IMG/VR virus record: IMGVR_UViG_3300032294_000876
Coordinates: 1 to 31,722 of that record
Strand: one strand, 5' to 3'
DNA length: 31,722 nucleotides
Source of the DNA: a virus
Position numbers and translations under genes: made by a program. The number at the start of each line of letters is the position of its first letter. The stretch's first letter is position 1. Positions 1,757 to 31,722 of this stretch are shown piece by piece. The notes beneath the pieces are model-generated. The model was given only the letters and a program-made list of their open reading frames with translations. It did no database searches and was not told the origin of the DNA.

Positions 1757-7513
<5,757 letters not shown>

Positions 7514-7671: not shown

Positions 7672-9189
7672 TTATAGTGAAAAGAATCTTGCTACAGGCT
7701 TTACTGGTACTGGCACTGTGGCACGATCATAAGAAAAGATTGCTGCTACGCAAGCGTCAATCTTCTTTTTGCTGTTTGCTTTTTGAATCATTAGCCCTCT
7801 TGACGATGTTTTCGTCATAGAGTTGGCTACATGTCTGTTTAATGCTTCATGACCTGAGTGAGTAAATGAGTTATTCATAACTGCCTCATAAAATTTGGCT
7901 GTTGCTGGAACCATTCGTTCTGCAGAGTTTGGATAAGAAACTACTGGCATACCTTCCTCATCAAAAAGCATAAAAGTTCTAGAATATCTGGCAGGATCAA
8001 AGACTACCTCACGAATGCTGTAATCTGGATTTCTGTATGCATCTATTATACAGGATTCTACCTCAGCAACGGGTATAAACCAGTTCTGATCTGCATCATC
8101 TGGTCTTTCCCAAATTGCTAGAATGTCTAAGTGAGGCTTTTCTCCACCTAAATACCATGCAACTATTGCTGTTGAGTCTCCATTAAAAGATCCATCAAAG
8201 CCAAGTATAACATCTTCGCCAGGTATTTGCTCTCTATTTTTAAGAGTTAAGTTGTCCCAAGCATCAGTTGGTATCCAAGTCTGAGCAGAATCAGTCCATA
8301 GATTAAGTCTTTTAGTTTTAAATTCAGCCTCTGGAGTCAAAAGTGAAGCAGATTTCATATCGTCAGCAGAGAGAATATCTCCATAAGATGGATTTGCTAA
8401 ACGCCAATTGTCTTCATCTTTGTAATTAAGTTTCTCATCACCTTGATACCAGGCGAAAAAGAAGGAAGGATCGTCAACTTCACCTTTGGATAACTGTACG
8501 CCTCTTTGGTACATTTGGTAACAGAGAGATTCTTTGCCAGAAGAGTCATACTTCACCCCTGCTGTCGTAATGGCTACAAGCATTGGCTCAAGACGAGCAC
8601 CCATAGACAGAGACATTGTGTCGTATAGTTCTCTATTTGGCTGGCTATGTAACTCGTCAAATGCCACAAATGTAGAGTTCAGACCCTCTTTGGTGAATGC
8701 TTCTGAAGATAAGGCTCTATAAACTGTGCCTGTACCTGGATTATAAATAACATCTCTGTAAGTTTCTAATACGGCTGCTAGTTCTGGTTCTAATTCAACC
8801 ATTCTCTTTACCGTTTTGAAAATAATCTTAGCCTGCTCTTTATCTGCAGCACATGAGTAGATTTGTCCACCTTTTACTCCAAGCAATAACTGCTCAAGCA
8901 CCAAAGTAGATAGAAGTGCAGATTTACCTGCTTTGCGAGGGATTCCAATCAAAGCACGACGATGTTTTAGTAGGCCAGACTCATCTTCTGCATATAAATG
9001 TAGTAAAAGTTCTTTCTGCCAGTCACGAAGGACTAGTTTATCTCCAACATTACCCGCAATAGAGTCCTCTGTAATACGACAAAGTGTCTCAGCAAAGTCA
9101 ATAACATCGTATCCACGACTATTTGCCAGTTCAATATCTGAGACAGGAGACAGATATGCTGGAGGCCAGTGTTCTATTTTAGTCTCCAT
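7672..9189 (-). CDS. terL: Terminase large subunit
   Basis: ATP-driven DNA packaging motor and nuclease, HK97/Terminase_1 type, 505 residues. Walker A is IPRKAGKS at about 83-90, Walker B VAFDE at about 175-179, and the motor coupling motif ITTAG follows near 208. The C-terminal RNase H-like nuclease begins with GFDGSFNGDST, whose two Asp residues are metal ligands. The C-terminal half keeps DPARY and the usual MTKTSSRGL end. It starts two bases after the stop of the S1-like gene. The packaging module is intact apart from the S1 gene lying between the two terminase subunits. Confidence 0.95.
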   Translation of the reverse strand: METKIEHWPPAYLSPVSDIELANSRGYDVIDFAETLCRITEDSIAGNVGDKLVLRDWQKELLLHLYAEDESGLLKHRRALIGIPRKAGKSALLSTLVLEQLLLGVKGGQIYSCAADKEQAKIIFKTVKRMVELEPELAAVLETYRDVIYNPGTGTVYRALSSEAFTKEGLNSTFVAFDELHSQPNRELYDTMSLSMGARLEPMLVAITTAGVKYDSSGKESLCYQMYQRGVQLSKGEVDDPSFFFAWYQGDEKLNYKDEDNWRLANPSYGDILSADDMKSASLLTPEAEFKTKRLNLWTDSAQTWIPTDAWDNLTLKNREQIPGEDVILGFDGSFNGDSTAIVAWYLGGEKPHLDILAIWERPDDADQNWFIPVAEVESCIIDAYRNPDYSIREVVFDPARYSRTFMLFDEEGMPVVSYPNSAERMVPATAKFYEAVMNNSFTHSGHEALNRHVANSMTKTSSRGLMIQKANSKKKIDACVAAIFSYDRATVPVPVKPVARFFSL

Positions 9190-9191
9190 GA

Positions 9192-9995
9192 TTAACCTTT
9201 AAATGCTAACGAGAGCCTGTCTTTGTCAAAATCAATCTCTAAGACTTCAACTTCTATGTCATGGCCCACCACAAATTGCTCAGGAGTCCATTTGCCCATC
9301 TTAGATTTGTGGACCAAACCAGAGACAAGGCCAAGTGAAACGAAGATTCCAAAGTTATTAATCCCTGAAACTGTGCCCACATAGGACAAGCCTTCTTTTA
9401 ACTTGCTAAAGTGAATCATCTTCTCTTGCTTGAGGTCATTCTCAATAAGTGCCTTGCGAGATATAACAATGTTACCCTTGTGTCGTTCAAACTGAATAAT
9501 CTTGGCTTCTACTGTCTGGCCAACGAATGTAGTAAAGTCTGCATCCTTATTTATGTGAGATTGTGATGAAGGTAAGAATGCTCTTACGCCAATATCTACA
9601 ATCATGCCACCCTTGACGACCTTAGTGATAACACCAGATACGACCTTATCATCAGAGTTCCAGATAGCCTCTACTTGATCCCATAGAGATTCTACTTCTG
9701 CTTCCTTCATAGACAGGACAAATTGTCCTTCTTCGTCTGTTCTGATTATGTTGGCTTGGACTGTTTTGCCAATCTCTAAAACCTCATAGATATCAAAGAT
9801 TCGTTTTGCTGATACTTCCTTCTTTGGAATAAAGGCCTCAGTCTTAGAGCCAATATCAATAAGGGCTCCATCACGATCAATCTGGACTACTGTGCCTTTG
9901 ACTAAATCGCCAACTGCGTATGTCTTCATGGATTCATCTATTGCTCTTAGGAAGTCTTCTGCTGTCCCTATGTCGTTAATTGCTATGTTGCTCAT
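9192..9995 (-). CDS. Ribosomal protein S1-like protein with three S1 domains
   Basis: RNA-binding OB-fold protein, 267 residues from the ATG that has an AGGGG ribosome site. It overlaps the end of terS by 20 nt. Three S1 repeats are visible: about 30-95 (GDLVKGTVVQIDRDGALIDIG), 115-180 (VVKGGMIVDIGVRAFLPSSQ) and 205-267 (GTVSGINNFGIFVSLG). The second repeat carries the GG-hydrophobic-D-G-RAFLP signature typical of domain 2 of bacterial S1, which with domain 1 contacts the ribosome; the third resembles RNA-binding repeats. Cellular S1 usually has four to six repeats, so this is a short form. Likely roles are steering host ribosomes to phage mRNA, or RNA protection (inference). Its location between terS and terL is unusual. 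Confidence 0.9.
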   Translation of the reverse strand: MSNIAINDIGTAEDFLRAIDESMKTYAVGDLVKGTVVQIDRDGALIDIGSKTEAFIPKKEVSAKRIFDIYEVLEIGKTVQANIIRTDEEGQFVLSMKEAEVESLWDQVEAIWNSDDKVVSGVITKVVKGGMIVDIGVRAFLPSSQSHINKDADFTTFVGQTVEAKIIQFERHKGNIVISRKALIENDLKQEKMIHFSKLKEGLSYVGTVSGINNFGIFVSLGLVSGLVHKSKMGKWTPEQFVVGHDIEVEVLEIDFDKDRLSLAFKG

Positions 9996-10494
9996 TGTCT
10001 GCCCCTTGGTTGATTGTGTCTTCGTCAAATACTATTTTAGCACGACGCTCTCTCTTCTCCAATAATTTATCAATTGAAGTTGCTGCTCGTACTTCTGCTA
10101 CACCTAAACGAGACCTGGAAACTGGATCAAAGCCCAGTGAGGTCAGAGCATCTGTGTATGCCTTGTTAATTGCCACATAAGCCTTAGCATCTGCAGGCTC
10201 TGTAGAAATCATATAACGGTCTCTTGCTGCTTCATTAGCATCAGCCAAATGCGATGCATTTTTAATAGCCTCAATATCACTAACAGGACTAAGCCAAGTA
10301 ACAGCAACGCCCCAAGCACGATTCCATAAATCTAGTCCTGATTGCTTAAGACTCTCAGGTGGTTCTGGTATTTCTCTAGCCATTGGCAAATGCGTAATCA
10401 CATTTAGATCAGGCAAAGGTCGTCCTCCAGGGTTTCCCATCACTCTTTTGAGTTCATTTGGCTTTGGAGGCCTTCCCGCAGTTGGTTGTGCCAT
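9976..10494 (-). CDS. terS: Terminase small subunit
   Basis: DNA-recognition partner of the packaging motor. From the chosen ATG it starts with the family signature GRPPKP followed by NPGGRPLP. The centre is helical (LWNRAWGVAVTWLSPVSDIEAIKNASHLAD), and the C-terminus has DALTSLGFDPVSRSRLG, typical of the P27-like small terminase family. In-frame starts up to 10545 exist; I prefer MAQPTAGRPP because the family begins there, although the nearest AAAGGA lies 12 nt away. The short HNH nuclease upstream and terL downstream support the call. Confidence 0.85.
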   Translation of the reverse strand: MAQPTAGRPPKPNELKRVMGNPGGRPLPDLNVITHLPMAREIPEPPESLKQSGLDLWNRAWGVAVTWLSPVSDIEAIKNASHLADANEAARDRYMISTEPADAKAYVAINKAYTDALTSLGFDPVSRSRLGVAEVRAATSIDKLLEKRERRAKIVFDEDTINQGADNEQHSN

Positions 10495-10582
10495 TTTTTG
10501 GTTTTTTCCTTTTCTACTAATTCCTTTTTGAAACATCGTTGACACTTTTGGGCCAAATGTCCAAAACTGACAATTTCGCTAT

Positions 10583-10694: not shown

Positions 10695-10985
10695 TTATCC
10701 TTTAGAACTATTGCATTTTCTGCACAAAACAGAAATGTTGTCTAAAGTATTTAATCCTCCATTGGCTATAGATAGTATATGGTCTGCCGTCAGGTCTTTA
10801 TTTGTTCCGCATTTGGAGCACCATGGCTGGAGGGATCTTGCTAATCTTGATAATTTCTGCCATTCATAATCATATTGGTTATGTCTTCTTCTGGGATTTC
10901 TCAGAGTCTGCAGTCTTGCACATTGATCGCATCTAGATTTTCTTACCAGGATTCCACAACCAGGGCAGGGCCTATTAAATTTCAT
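10695..10985 (-). CDS. HNH endonuclease next to terminase
   Basis: A 96-residue HNH nuclease. An N-terminal CPGC/CDQC zinc knuckle (about 8-22) is followed by basic residues. The core is WCSKCG, then LTADHILSIANGG (DH catalytic pair near residue 68), and N and CRKCNSSKG close to the C-terminus. This domain layout next to small terminase is common in cos-type phages, where HNH proteins such as HK97 gp74 support terminase cleavage. A packaging role therefore fits better than a homing role, and it suggests cohesive-end packaging (inference). Confidence 0.88.
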   Translation of the reverse strand: MKFNRPCPGCGILVRKSRCDQCARLQTLRNPRRRHNQYDYEWQKLSRLARSLQPWCSKCGTNKDLTADHILSIANGGLNTLDNISVLCRKCNSSKG

Positions 10986-13935: not shown

Positions 13936-15003
13936 TTATAATTGGTACCAACCTTTGTCCCATAGCGTTAATAGCCTATTAAAATATCTATCGTATTTAT
14001 ATCTAATCATATCAGTAGAGTATTTTGCATATGTGTCTGTGGCTATCTTTCTATAGTCCAGGCTCTTTACCTGTTCCGTCGCTTTTACGAACTCAGCCAG
14101 AGTATTGCATCTAAAGCCATTGAAGCCGTTCTGGACGGTTTCTGTAAATATGCCTAAGTCCGTCGTAATAACGGGCGTACCTGTCGCCATAGCCTGTATG
14201 TGGCTGTTACAGAAGGGTTCATGATAAAGGGTAGGTGAAAAGGCTGCAATTGCTCCTCCAAGGAGTTTTGCTCTATCTTCTGCTGCTACCTCTCCTATGT
14301 ATTCACCGTAAGACGGTATATATGAGCCTGATCCAGCCATGATTAGCCTTACTCCTGCTCTTTCACATGCCTGACTTGCAATGTCCACACCTTTACGCTG
14401 AGTCATTCTGCCAAAGTATAAGTAATAATCTTCTTTTTCTAACTGCCAAGGAAACTCGTCTTTATTGTAATATCCATTAACAACGCCATCATAGAAATTT
14501 ATATCTATGTCTGCTGCATTTCTATGCTGAGCATAAACTGCTGATCTCCAGGTATTGGATTCAAATACTCTGTACTTAGCAAAAGTACCTGAATAACCTA
14601 TGCCCCACTCTACTGACATATGGTCAGGAAAGGCATCTGCTACAGGCTTTTGTGCAAGACCACCAATTAGACAAATGAAGTCTTTTTGTTGAATGTGTCT
14701 TGCAATGACATTGATTGCATTGCGATTAAACTCTTTCCAATGTGGAAGGGTATTATCAAAAGATGCTGATGTGTAGTGATTATTACCTACAGCAGCAAGT
14801 CTCAAGTCTTCAGAAAGGCACGGAATAAAGTCAGTAACATTTGCATCTGTTCTATTACCAGAAGCATATAGATATACCTCATGACCCAAAGAGGTCATCA
14901 TATTACAAAAGCCAATAACCTTATCTGTATAAGCACAACTTACGAACTCTTTAGTTGCAAGTGTGTGGGGCAATGCGACTACATGAAAACGCATTTTTTC
15001 CAT
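13936..15003 (-). CDS. GT4-family glycosyltransferase
   Basis: A GT-B fold transferase of 355 residues that would transfer a sugar from an activated donor to a phage or host acceptor. The C-terminal Rossmann half shows YYLYFGRMTQRKGVDIASQA, GVRLIMAGSG and the donor-site segment LYHEPFCNSHIQAMATGTPVI. In this family the last segment normally has two Glu residues separated by seven positions; here the second is Gln. The N-terminal half (SLGHEVYLYASG) is the acceptor domain. It starts in a TAATG overlap with the endonuclease VII gene. It is far from the modification cassette at 18-21 kb and could act on the host surface, phage DNA or virions. Confidence 0.87.
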   Translation of the reverse strand: MEKMRFHVVALPHTLATKEFVSCAYTDKVIGFCNMMTSLGHEVYLYASGNRTDANVTDFIPCLSEDLRLAAVGNNHYTSASFDNTLPHWKEFNRNAINVIARHIQQKDFICLIGGLAQKPVADAFPDHMSVEWGIGYSGTFAKYRVFESNTWRSAVYAQHRNAADIDINFYDGVVNGYYNKDEFPWQLEKEDYYLYFGRMTQRKGVDIASQACERAGVRLIMAGSGSYIPSYGEYIGEVAAEDRAKLLGGAIAAFSPTLYHEPFCNSHIQAMATGTPVITTDLGIFTETVQNGFNGFRCNTLAEFVKATEQVKSLDYRKIATDTYAKYSTDMIRYKYDRYFNRLLTLWDKGWYQL

Positions 15004-17999: not shown

Positions 18000-18230
18000 T
18001 TACTCCTTTGGTTTTGCTTTTCTTTTAGGTCTTACATTCTCAGTCATGAGAATTATCATTATCTGCTCAACCTTATCCTCTAGTCTGTTGACCTGATCTT
18101 TTAGGCTTGAGCCAGAATTAGGCTTAAGTTCTGATAGGTAGTGTTTTACCATCCAGCGAACTGCTGTAGCCAATCCACCTGCTAATGTAAAGATGGCTAC
18201 AAAAAACGCAGCCCAGTCTTGTGGTGTCAC
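18000..18230 (-). CDS. Membrane protein with coiled coil, holin-associated
   Basis: A 76-residue protein with one transmembrane helix (WAAFFVAIFTLAGGLATAV, about 6-24), then a coiled coil (LKDQVNRLEDKVEQIMIILM) and a Lys/Arg-rich end. This matches the single-span membrane proteins found beside holins in actinophage lysis cassettes. The GTG start overlaps the epimerase stop as GTGA and has a strong AAGGAG site. Confidence 0.7.
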   Translation of the reverse strand: MTPQDWAAFFVAIFTLAGGLATAVRWMVKHYLSELKPNSGSSLKDQVNRLEDKVEQIMIILMTENVRPKRKAKPKE

Positions 18231-19021
18231 TTGCTTCTCCTTATTTCAGACTGAATAGCCTGTTTGAATGTATATGCTGGTTCCCAACCAAAGATATGTC
18301 TATTATCTAAGGTAGGGATAGTGGACACATCTTCTGTGCCCAATACTGTATATTCTATATGATGGTTATTTGCTTCGTATTCTGCTATTACATCAAGTAA
18401 TGTTCTTGATTCTCCTGTAAAAATGTCTGTTGTAAATGACTTGCCTTTTTGTAGATATTCCATGGCCATAACATTTGCCCTTGCTATATCTAAGACATGT
18501 ACATAGTCTCTTGTTGATGTGGTGCTATTTATAAATATTTCTGGCTGCCGTCTGATTATTTCAAATAGATTTGTTGAGCCAATATCTTGAACTGTGTCTG
18601 TTTTGCCCACAATATTAAAGTACCTTAAAACGGCCACTGAAGGGCAAATGAGGCCTAATAGTTTCTCTTCCACTATCTTTGCCCTGGCATAGGCTGAACG
18701 AGGCTCATACACGCTTGCGGAGGAGGCGAAAACGACTGGTGTAGACGACACCTTAGAAACAATAGCAGTAGAAAAGGTGGAAAGTATATTATTTAGGTAA
18801 TAAGCCCATGGCTTCTTCTTAGATTCTGGAATAGACTTCTTGGCTGATAGGTGAATTATGGCTATTGGATCTTGTCCAAACAAATAACTAATTAGATAGA
18901 TAGTGTTTCTGCCTATCTTCTTGTCTATCTCAATTACTTCGTACCCTGAATCTTCAAGGAGTTCTCTTGTTGCCGTTCCTACATATCCACGAGATCCTGT
19001 TAGTACTACTTTAGAACTCAT
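18227..19021 (-). CDS. NAD-dependent sugar epimerase/dehydratase (SDR, GalE-like)
   Basis: Converts a nucleotide sugar, probably by C4 epimerisation, to supply a donor. The Rossmann motif TGSRGYVG lies at 8-15, Ser-rich SSASVY near 100-105 and catalytic YARAK (Tyr111, Lys115) follow, and DYVHVLDIARANVMAM is the usual sugar-binding helix. At 264 residues it is shorter than typical GalE (about 330), with compacted loops. The ATG lies inside the last codons of the GT60 gene (11-nt overlap), so the two are coupled. It may provide UDP-GalNAc or UDP-Gal for the neighbouring transferase (inference). Confidence 0.88.
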   Translation of the reverse strand: MSSKVVLTGSRGYVGTATRELLEDSGYEVIEIDKKIGRNTIYLISYLFGQDPIAIIHLSAKKSIPESKKKPWAYYLNNILSTFSTAIVSKVSSTPVVFASSASVYEPRSAYARAKIVEEKLLGLICPSVAVLRYFNIVGKTDTVQDIGSTNLFEIIRRQPEIFINSTTSTRDYVHVLDIARANVMAMEYLQKGKSFTTDIFTGESRTLLDVIAEYEANNHHIEYTVLGTEDVSTIPTLDNRHIFGWEPAYTFKQAIQSEIRRSK

Positions 19022-19925
19022 AATAATTATCCAAAATCTCTCCATTAACAAAGTCTAGGCCACAGAACTCTCCGTATTGGGCTAATGTTCTTTCTGTTCC
19101 AAGTCTGACTTCTCCAACTAATCCATCACCAGTTAGTACAAGTTTTATCTCATTATGTGAGACTTTACCTAACTCGCTTGTTTGCTGAGGCCAATCTCCA
19201 TAAACGGTTCTTCTTTTGTTCTTTCCTTCTGAGCCATAATACAGGTGATACATAAACATCTTGCTTGGCACAAACAAGTCATACCCATTAGTGTATGCTC
19301 TTGCTGCCATAAATATTTCTTCACCATCAGCAAAGATTAATTGGTTGGGCTTTAGGAATTCGCCTTCTGTAAAGATAGATCCACCAGATACAGATATAGA
19401 AAATATATTGCCTTCTGGATTTACTACAGTTCCTTGCATTGGAGTTCTGCCATCTTTAAATCTTGCTTTGTCTTTCCAATAGAACTGCGTAACAACTTCT
19501 TCATGCTGATTTACTTTTTCTTCATCGCCCTCATACCAAAATGGTTTTGGATATTGGCTTATTAGTGGCTTCTTAAACCCGTTTGCTTTATGTGTGTTTA
19601 TTTCATTAATGAGGAATGTATCCCAGTTCTGATCAAACCTGCTGTGAGCATCTATTTGGAAATAGTAATCTTCGCCATAATAAAAGTTATGAGCCAAAGA
19701 CCTTCCAAGACCCATGCCAAGATTATCTGGTGCTTTGCTTTCAACTAACTTAACATTAGGAATGCTTCTTACTGGCTCAATCCAGGAATTGTCTTCATAG
19801 AAGATTGAGTGGACACCAAAGATTAACTCTGTTTCTCCTGATGACTTTGCTATTGCATCTCTTATAGTTTTCTCAAGTTCATAATCATGATATGAGGTTA
19901 TTTGTATAAAGATGCTCTTCTTCAT
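19011..19925 (-). CDS. GT60-type glycosyltransferase (Skp1 hydroxyproline GlcNAc-transferase family)
   Basis: A GT-A fold transferase of 304 residues. Family signatures include IFIQITSYHDYELEKTI at the N-terminus, the metal-binding DxH motif in YYFQIDAHSRF (near residue 93), and GEEIFMAARAYTNGYDLFVPS with YHLYYG near 205-235. The eukaryotic founding member adds GlcNAc to a hydroxyproline of Skp1 after a prolyl 4-hydroxylase has acted. Here a 2OG oxygenase of the prolyl hydroxylase type lies two genes upstream and an epimerase overlaps downstream. The acceptor is unknown; the Pro-Thr repeat protein and the collagen-like fibre are candidates. TAATG coupling to the radical SAM gene. Confidence 0.82.
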   Translation of the reverse strand: MKKSIFIQITSYHDYELEKTIRDAIAKSSGETELIFGVHSIFYEDNSWIEPVRSIPNVKLVESKAPDNLGMGLGRSLAHNFYYGEDYYFQIDAHSRFDQNWDTFLINEINTHKANGFKKPLISQYPKPFWYEGDEEKVNQHEEVVTQFYWKDKARFKDGRTPMQGTVVNPEGNIFSISVSGGSIFTEGEFLKPNQLIFADGEEIFMAARAYTNGYDLFVPSKMFMYHLYYGSEGKNKRRTVYGDWPQQTSELGKVSHNEIKLVLTGDGLVGEVRLGTERTLAQYGEFCGLDFVNGEILDNYYEF

Positions 19926-20860
19926 TATTCTTTCCAGATAGCGTGAATACAGGTTGTGCAGAAGTTTTCATAAGAATGCTTAATCATATCTTTACGCTCT
20001 TGGCTCTCCCATATTTGCTTTATTGGTGTATCGTTGACATTGCCAAATACCGTTTCAAAATCATAGTCATTGCAACATAAAAATACAGCCCCGTTAGCGT
20101 TTATGTGTATCCAAGTATCAGGTCTACTGCCCATATTGTTACAGCCAACGACCTTGCCCTTGCCAGTTATCTGGTTTTTCATTATTTTACGAGTATCAAG
20201 ATATCCTGCTCTATCAACTAGTGCAGTGTTTGGATTAATATTTATCTCTGGAAAGGCTTCTTTCATTTGCTTTACAGCAGTAGCCGTATCTCCAGTATTA
20301 TCATCTAAGTCTATTGCAGGAGCATTCTCTAATAACTCCATGTAGCCAAGAGATGTTTCATTTATGCCATTTACCTGCATAGAAACTCTTTCATTTGGAA
20401 AGTTATCTATTGCGTATCTTATGTTGTCCATTACCTTTTGGTGCATCTTTTCTGGCTTACCCGTCATTTTTGCCCAGGTTGCAGCATCAGCAGAAGGAGT
20501 GTTAAAGTGGATTAGGTCAACTACATCACTGTATTCCTTGATAATGTCCATCTTGTCTTTTGTTAGTGGAGAGCCATTTGTAAGAACCATTGTTCTAATT
20601 CCGTGTTCTCTAAACAACTCAAGCATCTCCTTGAAGTGCTTATAAAGCAAGACTTCGTTGTAGTGTGCTGTGTAAATAAAAGAAAATGATGGATCTACAA
20701 AGTCTCCAACGCCATCTTTGAGTTGCTCAATAACAGATCTAATTGTCTCAATAGACATTGTGTTTCTGCCAATGGCTGGATTTTCTTCATAGGCTACAGG
20801 ACAAAACCAGCAACCAAGATTACATAACCCATTAGGGTCTAGTTGAACAAGTTTTATCAT
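19925..20860 (-). CDS. Radical SAM protein with SPASM-like C-terminus
   Basis: Cys13, Cys17 and Cys20 (CNLGCWFC) bind the [4Fe-4S] cluster that cleaves S-adenosylmethionine. A TIM-barrel body follows (LFREHGIRTMVLTNG, LIHFNTP). The C-terminal part has GCNN, FLCCND and FCTTC, spacing suited to an auxiliary SPASM cluster as in peptide- or sugar-modifying enzymes. I start at ATG 20860, which overlaps the oxygenase stop as ATGA; a TTG three codons earlier also opens the frame. Between a hydroxylase and a glycosyltransferase it probably takes part in the same modification. Its chemistry (epimerisation, crosslinking, methylation, dehydration) cannot be read from the sequence. Confidence 0.87.
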   Translation of the reverse strand: MIKLVQLDPNGLCNLGCWFCPVAYEENPAIGRNTMSIETIRSVIEQLKDGVGDFVDPSFSFIYTAHYNEVLLYKHFKEMLELFREHGIRTMVLTNGSPLTKDKMDIIKEYSDVVDLIHFNTPSADAATWAKMTGKPEKMHQKVMDNIRYAIDNFPNERVSMQVNGINETSLGYMELLENAPAIDLDDNTGDTATAVKQMKEAFPEININPNTALVDRAGYLDTRKIMKNQITGKGKVVGCNNMGSRPDTWIHINANGAVFLCCNDYDFETVFGNVNDTPIKQIWESQERKDMIKHSYENFCTTCIHAIWKE

Positions 20861-21456
20861 TTCATCCAACTAACCACTGCGTATCTTTTTCCTTCAACAA
20901 CTGGAGATACTGAGTGGTTGTAGACATATGTAGAAGGAAATACAATCATCTGATTTGCCTTTGGCTTGAATGTAATTCCAAAGCGTGGGAAGTTGATTTC
21001 TCCACCTGTGTAGTTGTCGTTTAAATAATAAACTGTAGAGACTCGTCTGTGATAAGATGGGTTGTCGTCAATGTGGTTGCTAAAGAACTGACCTTCACCA
21101 TACTTTAGAATTCCGTATGTATCGTGCCAATCGCAAACAACTCCAAAAGAATTCATATAGTCTCTTTCAACTGGATCAAAATACTTAAAAAATATGTTGT
21201 TTAGATTTGCGTCTAATATTTCAGCAAATGTTCCTACTGTTGGATCTTTTAGTTGTCCTGCATATCCAACCCCAAATGTGCTTGTGTTTCTTACTCTCTT
21301 ATTTACCATTGGGTCATCTGATTCTTTGACTGATGCATCATTCCAACTTAATCCCGCAGAAACTATGCCTTCTTCAATGTCATTGTATAGATTTTCGCTA
21401 TCTGGAATAACATCGCTATATACGATTATTCCTGGTGCTATTTCTTCTTTTATCAT
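20857..21456 (-). CDS. 2-oxoglutarate/Fe(II) oxygenase, prolyl 4-hydroxylase type
   Basis: A 199-residue oxygenase. The jelly-roll core has the iron triad His128-x-Asp130 (FFSNHIDD) and His181 (YNHSVSPV), and Arg191 ten residues on would bind 2-oxoglutarate. GILKYGEGQFF before the first His and GGEINFP after it are characteristic of P4H-like enzymes. It would hydroxylate an amino-acid side chain using O2. It is followed, with overlaps, by radical SAM, GT60 and epimerase genes, and preceded by a Cys-rich small protein. Related oxygenases are common in aquatic phages with unknown substrates; the GT60 partner here suggests proline. Confidence 0.9.
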   Translation of the reverse strand: MIKEEIAPGIIVYSDVIPDSENLYNDIEEGIVSAGLSWNDASVKESDDPMVNKRVRNTSTFGVGYAGQLKDPTVGTFAEILDANLNNIFFKYFDPVERDYMNSFGVVCDWHDTYGILKYGEGQFFSNHIDDNPSYHRRVSTVYYLNDNYTGGEINFPRFGITFKPKANQMIVFPSTYVYNHSVSPVVEGKRYAVVSWMK

Positions 21457-30314: not shown

Positions 30315-30952
30315 TAGTATGCCAATCCAAAGTTTCTTCTGTATGTCTTTAGAAGCATCTCAACATCTGGATCTAGACGAGAGTTCAAACGAACTGTTCC
30401 TAGTTCTACAGATCCTGCAATACCAAACGGAGATTGCTTTCTAACGAATAATCTTGATGCCTGAATCTTGCAGGCTAATTCTACTTCATAAGGTACTGAA
30501 GACCAGCCCCAAACTCCAGTAATCTTAACTGTTTGTGGAAAGAAGTATGGAAATACATAAGTCTGAATTGCTAATAGTCTAGTCACAGGCTTGCCTGTCT
30601 CTGGATTATTGATAGGCTCATACATAACATCTGTGTCTAAATTCCATACCTGGTTAAATGGTCCAGATTGATTTGCTCTTGATCGTATTTCTGTTGGCTC
30701 AATAAGGTCATCAATCTCTAAGTACCATGGATTTACTGGTGTGTAGTACTTGCTTACAGGTGCTGCTAATGTACCCTCTTGGTAGAAAGATCTCTGGCAG
30801 TAGTCATCAATCATACGGCTTGCAGCAAGAATGGCTGCTTGGATATCATTATCGTCAATGCTATCCTCAATCTGTAGTGCATTTCTTACATCTGCTAATG
30901 TTGTATAAACATTATCAGGCTGCACACTTTGACTAAGCGTAGGTCTGCTCAT
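30314..30952 (-). CDS. Head-tail connector protein (HK97 gp6-like)
   Basis: A 212-residue connector that would form a ring under the portal. The N-terminal part has the pattern YTTLADVRNALQIEDSIDDNDIQAAILAASRMIDDYCQRSF, characteristic of gp6/gp15-type connectors, and IQASRLFVRKQSPFGIAGS near the end. Encoded after the capsid, as in HK97-like phages. Overlaps both neighbours by 1-4 nt. Confidence 0.87.
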   Translation of the reverse strand: MSRPTLSQSVQPDNVYTTLADVRNALQIEDSIDDNDIQAAILAASRMIDDYCQRSFYQEGTLAAPVSKYYTPVNPWYLEIDDLIEPTEIRSRANQSGPFNQVWNLDTDVMYEPINNPETGKPVTRLLAIQTYVFPYFFPQTVKITGVWGWSSVPYEVELACKIQASRLFVRKQSPFGIAGSVELGTVRLNSRLDPDVEMLLKTYRRNFGLAY

Positions 30953-31053
30953 TTATTCCTCTTCTCCAATTTAGGTAACATAGCCTTCTCCATCTTAGGA
31001 GTCGCACTTGCTGTTTCCTTTTTAATTCTTAAAATGTTCTTAAGTTTTTTCAT
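30949..31053 (-). CDS. Small basic peptide, 34 aa
   Basis: MKKLKNILRIKKETASATPK and a Lys-rich remainder. It has an AAGGA site and its stop overlaps the connector ATG as ATGA. It lies directly behind the capsid gene and two hairpins. Too short to classify; the coupling to the connector supports it as a real ORF. Confidence 0.55.
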   Translation of the reverse strand: MKKLKNILRIKKETASATPKMEKAMLPKLEKRNK

Positions 31054-31073
31054 AAATTCCTTTTTTTTAATGA

Positions 31074-31133
31074 AGGACAGGCCCACCAACGGGGCAGCCA
31101 ACAGGCCTGTCCTCCACCTTAGATTACTCTAAG
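31074..31133 (-). other. Tandem RNA hairpins after the capsid gene
   Basis: Two perfect stems on the minus transcript: CTTAGA-gtaa-TCTAAG (31118-31133) and a 10-bp GC-rich AGGACAGGCC/GGCCTGTCCT stem with a 20-nt loop (31074-31113). Neither is followed by a T-run on the minus strand (TTCATTAAAAAAAA follows). They may slow transcription or protect the capsid message 3' end rather than act as a classical terminator. Confidence 0.6.
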
Positions 31134-31158
31134 TATTGCATAGAATTAACTATACAAA

Positions 31159-31722
31159 TTAGAATGTAGGTGTTACAAGACCAGTTCCTGAGATCTTTGA
31201 GAATGCTGCAGGGTAACGGCCAGCAGTTGCTGCTGCGTATCCGTATACGACTGACTTGATTGTCAAAGAACCAGCACCTGTTGCATCAAAGTTCAATGCG
31301 AATGGTGATCCAGCCTGCTCCCATAGATGGAATTCTGGTGCAGTTACGCAATAGATTTCATCCTGGTTAGTTCCAACACCTGCTGTTGTTGTAACATTTG
31401 CATCTGCAACGATTGGTAGACCCATCAATGAGTAACCTGAGTTACCGTAGAATGCCTGTCCTGCACCTGTAGCAAATGAGTTCATTGGGCCGTTTAGAGT
31501 AGGAACTACTAGTGGACGACCTGCTGTATCAACTGCTGCAAGCAAGAATGCTAGACGGCGTGGGTGCATGACCCAGTGTGTTGGGTTCATGAATGCACCA
31601 GTCTGTACCTTCTGGTATGCATCTGCTAACTTTGGATATAGTTCAGCAACTGTTGGTGATGCATCTGTGTATGTTACAGATCCAATTCCAACTGTGTTTG
31701 AAAGACCTAGGATAGAACCTGA
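31159..31722 (-). CDS. Major capsid protein, C-terminal part (runs off the right edge)
   Basis: HK97-fold shell protein; the 5' end lies beyond the window. The frame is open to base 31722, 187 codons before the stop. The characteristic segment is NPTHWVMHPRRLAFLLAAVDTAGRP, followed by LMGLPIVADANV and QDEIYCVTAPEFHLWEQ, which are the A-domain elements of this family. Encoded upstream of the connector, as expected. The start and the E-loop and N-arm are missing. Confidence 0.9.
   Translation of the reverse strand, partial: SGSILGLSNTVGIGSVTYTDASPTVAELYPKLADAYQKVQTGAFMNPTHWVMHPRRLAFLLAAVDTAGRPLVVPTLNGPMNSFATGAGQAFYGNSGYSLMGLPIVADANVTTTAGVGTNQDEIYCVTAPEFHLWEQAGSPFALNFDATGAGSLTIKSVVYGYAAATAGRYPAAFSKISGTGLVTPTF

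Follow-up and report, generated by a model that had tools for sequence, protein, structure and literature searches.

A three-domain homologue of ribosomal protein S1 encoded between the terminase genes in a lineage of small phages

The window analysed here, 31,722 nucleotides, comprises positions 1 to 31,722 of IMG/VR virus record IMGVR_UViG_3300032294_000876. A gene for a homologue of ribosomal protein S1 lies between the genes for the two terminase subunits, Table 1, as an earlier note made from the sequence had claimed, though the note gave no strand. The 20-nt overlap with terS and the three S1 domains that it described were also found, Pfam S1 (PF00575) giving three matching stretches with E 2.7e-41. 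The TerL start is 2 nt past the S1 stop. The true TerS start is probably further in than that of the longest ORF, for example at an ATG near 10494.

Table 1. The S1 gene, its domains and the adjoining terminase genes, in window positions.
Feature	Positions	Strand	Remarks
Terminase large subunit TerL	7672-9189	minus	phrog_9, E 4.7e-109
Phage S1 gene	9192-9995	minus	ATG at 9995, stop at 9192; 267 codons, 267 aa; three S1 domains equivalent to bS1 D1-D3
S1 domain 3, residues ~195-266	9198-9413	minus	protein ends here, without domain 4; boundaries approximate
S1 domain 2, residues ~115-184	9444-9653	minus	K128 (= K117) and F140 (= F130), mRNA-side contacts; boundaries approximate
S1 domain 1, residues 27-97	9705-9917	minus	holds D47 (= D39) and K51 (= K43)
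N-terminal anchor helix, residues ~10-24 (GTAEDFLRAIDESMK)	9924-9968	minus	from alignment to E. coli and actinobacterial bS1
Overlap of TerS end and S1 start, 20 nt	9976-9995	minus	
Terminase small subunit TerS (P27-like)	9976-10545	minus	phrog_83, E 3e-12; longest ORF

Just upstream of TerS is an HNH endonuclease gene (10695-10985, minus strand), kept in many relatives and weakly similar to the IscB HNH model; HNH genes beside terminases are common. Positions 1757-7165 (minus), which lie between the portal gene and a small ORF that follows TerL, encode a protein of 1802 aa with nine collagen-repeat stretches. A gene cluster at 18227-21456 (minus) contains an epimerase, a GlcNAc-type glycosyltransferase, a radical SAM/SPASM protein and a 2OG-Fe(II) oxygenase, and a further glycosyltransferase gene is at 13936-15003. 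Strong promoter-like sites with an extended -10 (11/12 matches) were seen at 16453-16424 and 13899-13870 (minus), directed toward the TerS-S1-TerL operon, and a terminator-like hairpin was seen at 17709-17680 (minus). The portal gene (1-321) and a head-tail connector gene (30952-31722) lie at opposite ends of the window and the major capsid gene was not recognised, so the record probably lacks some 2-3 kb of a genome of roughly 34 kb.

Scans of IMG/VR gave 92 distinct S1 loci in related phages. The order TerS-S1-TerL is complete in 81 of them; in the other 11 the contig end is reached first and none contradicts the order. The comparison of synteny in relatives that the earlier note proposed gave this order at every locus long enough to judge. 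Among 52 distinct junctions the TerS/S1 overlap is exactly 20 nt in 47, and TerL follows S1 after a gap of 2 nt in 38 and of 1 nt in 13. The lineage's longest records run to 32-34 kb and carry a single S1 gene each. Ten sister loci of the phiPsal1 type, with TerL 43-49% identical, have TerS abutting TerL without S1 and it is therefore simplest to suppose that the lineage's ancestor acquired S1 by insertion at the TerS/TerL junction. Values of dN/dS between close relatives are 0.11-0.16 for S1 (0.03-0.07 for TerL), so that the phage S1 is under purifying selection. These values and the 92 distinct loci without contradictory order confirm a real gene, far beyond chance. Since S1 is found between TerS and TerL in these loci without exception, and since the phage proteins form a single clade (see below), it is a true phage gene and not host contamination. 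No GenBank phage matched at the nucleotide level and PHROGs had no family for the S1 protein at E 0.001.

In one relative (L026, 601-1377) a 258-aa ORF, presumably methyltransferase-like, is inserted between TerS and S1. It starts MKQVA like S1 and has the same 20-nt overlap with TerS, an arrangement resembling a duplicated S1 start. Hits to S1 in GenBank records labelled as phages of Listeria, Enterococcus and Escherichia (H5, H7, H13, H15) were set aside as possible host DNA, as were S1 genes in unannotated gut 'Bacteriophage sp.' records (MT83xxxx), which may be bacterial contamination.

The best NCBIfam model for the protein is PRK07899, actinobacterial 30S protein S1, which scores 247.5 bits and aligns residues 2-266 with positions 9-277 of its 486; the next bS1 model scores 204.8 bits. 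The match begins at residue 2 because an N-terminal (I/V)A(I/V)NDIG..EDFL motif is common to it and actinobacterial S1. The phage protein has 267 aa, three rather than four domains, and a score well below the curated cut-off of 691 bits. It is therefore a truncated homologue and not an equivalog. Among PDB sequences the closest is M. smegmatis bS1 (8wi7, E 5e-69), followed by E. coli bS1. An AlphaFold2 model built on 12 phage sequences has three OB-type barrels and an N-terminal helix, with mean pLDDT 82.8 and a pTM of 0.51, as is to be expected where domains are flexibly linked. Over its whole length the model is matched best by chain B of 9gux, a 30S-transcription complex (Z 16.0, 252 residues, rmsd 4.8); from its length and 31% identity we take this chain to be bS1 OB1-OB3. 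The mycobacterial bS1 8wi7_b is also among the structural matches with Z 12.7. Pfam, NCBIfam, PDB, structure and alignment all give tandem S1 domains collinear with D1-D2-D3 of bS1. Judged by sequence comparison, the protein is an actinobacterial bS1 homologue that ends exactly after D3, and not a generic OB-fold protein.

Trees of D1-D3 place all phage S1 proteins in one clade (support 100/100) among Actinomycetota S1, on a long stem of 1.45-2.47 changes per site. The NDIG..EDFL motif is common to phage and actinobacterial S1 and absent in E. coli. The cellular relatives, 42-46% identical over 264 residues, are in Microbacteriaceae and Nanopelagicales. With distant outgroups the phage clade falls in an Actinomycetes polytomy and without them it falls inside Nanopelagicales (98/99 and 100/98). 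A host order was not read from the S1 tree, AU tests accepting phages with Microbacteriaceae (p 0.51), Nanopelagicales without the phages (p 0.26) and phages outside Actinomycetes (p 0.46). The host is probably an actinobacterium, given the affinity of S1 and given that the nearest cultured TerL relative belongs to a Pontimonas phage. A prophage search for TerL relatives found none in 201 Nanopelagicales genomes, though this search had no positive control and so shows little. WhiB is a common actinophage marker and was absent from nine records of the lineage. The S1 gene appears to be host-derived and to have been captured once by the ancestor of the lineage. The phylogeny suggested in the earlier note, against actinobacterial rpsA, supports descent from actinobacterial S1, and the placement with unrelated OB-fold proteins, coupled with loss of the residues contacting the 30S subunit, that would have spoken against it did not occur.

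In E. coli, bS1 contacts uS2 through F5, Q7, F9, E10, K43 and F79, and mRNA through K117, F120 and F130 (PMC10123108). The protein is anchored on the ribosome mainly by domain 1, through its N-terminal helix and loop 2, with K43 inserting into the uS2 zinc pocket and domain 2 located at the SD/anti-SD helix (PMC10123108); the earlier note had assigned the ribosome contact to domain 2. Alignment equates phage F15, I19 and D20 in the anchor helix with E. coli F5, F9 and E10, the contact roles being those of the E. coli structure (PMC10123108). F15, D47, K51, K128 and F140 are invariant in all 77 distinct phage proteins, so both elements of the uS2 anchor, F5 of the helix and the loop-2 lysine K43, are present throughout. 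The equivalent of F9 is I (once V), that of E10 is mostly D, that of F79 is E (once G) and that of F120 is M, L or F. The usual actinobacterial residues at these positions are I (also V), D or E, E, and L, respectively. With F9 replaced by I and F120 by M or L, the anchor is not identical to that of E. coli. On the other partner, uS2 residues M6, R7, H18, F32, D188, N203, D204, D205 and R208 are identical to those of E. coli in six candidate-host uS2 genes. Among conserved columns, those at contacts persist in the phages in 6 of 9 cases, against 52 of 180 for the other columns conserved in cells (Fisher p = 0.025). This enrichment may be read as modest evidence for a role at the ribosome, modest because some contact residues may also be structural.

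Across 54 loci, identity between S1 proteins tracks that of TerL and TerS (Mantel rho 0.78, a value reached by none of 500 permutations). S1 is faster-evolving, mean pairwise identity being 64% vs 83%, and pairs of phage S1 proteins fall as low as 44.5% identity. Of the columns that cellular S1 conserves, the phages keep only about 30%. Every complete phage protein found has D3, with F218 and H229 invariant; this domain is less acidic there than its cellular counterpart (mean -2.3 vs -7.0).

Shine-Dalgarno (SD) sequences of 4 nt or more precede 65% of 34 window genes, with gene starts approximate, vs 18% in random sequence and 70% in phiPsal1, which has no S1. No special initiation signal was seen in the window phage, its SD use resembling that of the S1-less phiPsal1. 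The earlier note's proposal that S1 binds a small RNA at 16.4 kb found no support: Rfam, which covers described RNA families, gave no match in the window at the gathering threshold and, below it, only two hits, to unrelated families; a search for inverted repeats at 15.8-18.0 kb was likewise negative.

Published work on E. coli bears on what a protein of this size could do. S1 cut to D1-D3 fully keeps 30S binding, suffices to form 30S initiation complexes on thrS mRNA and has roughly half activity on a structured mRNA (Duval et al., PMC3858243). When D3 is removed as well, the remaining D1-D2 is impaired, and it is lethal as sole copy; cells with D1-D3 only grow extremely slowly (PMC3858243), which argues that the phage form is not a full replacement for S1. 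The best explanation of the data, to which we give a probability of about 0.6, is a substitute S1 made late in infection that favours phage mRNA; from the comparisons above we infer ribosome binding, exchange with host S1, timing and mRNA preference. A captured host S1, trimmed to D1-D3 as the smallest active core, would be produced from the packaging operon along with TerS and TerL. It would bind the host 30S subunit at uS2 by the N-terminal helix and domain 1, replacing host S1 or alongside it, domains 2-3 would dock and unfold phage mRNA, and phage translation, probably late, would be favoured. Placement in the terminase operon suggests late synthesis by analogy with phage bS21, whose gene adjoining the large terminase reaches high expression late in infection, together with structural genes (PMC9723584). 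The reading of the protein as an S1 homologue of actinobacterial origin is supported by PRK07899, the mycobacterial bS1, the clade and the contact residues, which are consistent with the earlier note's suggestion that it may redirect initiation. Against the substitute S1 count the retention of only about 30% of cell-conserved columns and the long stem branch, which could mean new partners, as well as the differences of the anchor from that of E. coli, the slow growth of E. coli with D1-D3 only and the ordinary SD use.

The retention of D1, D2 and D3 in every complete case favours an active S1 over a simple blocker. The latter, which we consider unlikely though the strongest of the alternatives, would be a competitive inhibitor, a short S1 taking the uS2 site, displacing the four-domain host S1 and stopping host translation to the benefit of leaderless or strong-SD phage mRNAs. 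D1 or D1-D2 alone does displace native S1 in E. coli, block bulk translation and spare leaderless mRNA (Byrgazov et al., PMC3296737), and in the phages the anchor is the best-kept part and D4 is missing. However, D1 would suffice for blocking, yet D3 is kept with its two invariant residues, and in E. coli D1-D3 is active, not poisonous (PMC3858243). Host shut-off is usually early but presumed co-expression with TerS and TerL suggests a late gene, and the frequency of SD-like sequences in the window means that most genes are not obviously leaderless.

Rather less likely still is an RNA-binding protein acting off the ribosome and holding no stable role on it, which would serve phage transcripts as an RNA chaperone, an antitermination factor or a determinant of mRNA stability. 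Many RNA-binding proteins that are not ribosomal contain S1 domains, which are for this reason ambiguous, so that the 2019 census of phage ribosomal proteins omitted S1 (Mizuno et al., PMC6375957); the long stem, the lost columns and the reduced acidity of D3 would allow such a change of role. However, S1 proteins of this kind in low-GC Gram-positives lack D1 (PMC3296737), while D1 and its uS2 contacts are invariant in the phages. A packaging cofactor working with TerS and TerL, for instance by binding nucleic acid at the terminase, would account for the position in all 81 complete loci and the co-divergence with both subunits but is very improbable, since sister phages package without S1, S1 domains favour RNA and the conserved residues are ribosome contacts.

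Returning to the substitute S1, its wider form is an obligate stripped-down S1 in the packaging operon of a small-phage lineage, with ribosome re-programming and packaging co-translated and timed together; this we hold tentatively, at somewhat less than even odds. If true, no smaller natural S1 would act on ribosomes, and the protein would be a viral 'specialised ribosome' factor. The end of the phage protein coincides exactly with the limit of the minimal active core as defined by E. coli genetics, and the anchor residues are kept over wide divergence. Whether host S1 is exchanged for the phage protein, and whether mRNAs are selected in this way, becomes directly testable with a 267-aa protein, and the tight coupling of TerS, S1 and TerL gives a clear prediction of timing.

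S1 in phages is itself already known. The literature searched, largely open-access, yielded no account of an S1 gene lying between those for the terminase subunits or belonging to the core genes of small phages. Huge phages that carry rpS1 have been described, and so has the proposal that initiation is redirected (Al-Shayeb et al. 2020, PMC7162821). The window protein shares with them tandem S1 domains, but those phages have genomes >200 kb, up to six S1 domains and rare SD sequences, whereas the present lineage has genomes of about 32-34 kb, three domains, a fixed place beside the terminase and ordinary SD use; the absence of identifiable SD sequences in huge phages is not a feature of the window. 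A bS1 homologue is also carried by the Microcystis jumbo cyanophage PhiMa05/MaAM05 (PMC13157829), though it has 359 aa, lies beside ispH, bL21 and bL27, is of Vampirovibrio-like origin and is 28% identical to the window S1. Phage bS21 (Mizuno 2019, PMC6375957; Chen 2022, PMC9723584) is likewise a captured small-subunit initiation protein near terminase or structural genes and proposed to act late, but it belongs to an unrelated protein family and to Bacteroidetes phages with genomes up to 331 kb. Among cellular forms, actinobacterial bS1 (PRK07899; M. smegmatis 8wi7) shares the collinear D1-D2-D3, the NDIG..EDFL motif and the uS2-anchor residues; the phage protein differs in lacking D4 and the C-terminal tail (267 vs ~435-505 aa). 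The cyanobacterial and chloroplast S1 (PRK07400; PDB 5x8p) is a working three-domain S1, but the phage protein matches it more weakly (133.6 bits vs a cut-off of 460); the truncation is convergent and the lineage a different one. What is new here is the minimal form of S1, the small genomes and the invariant place.
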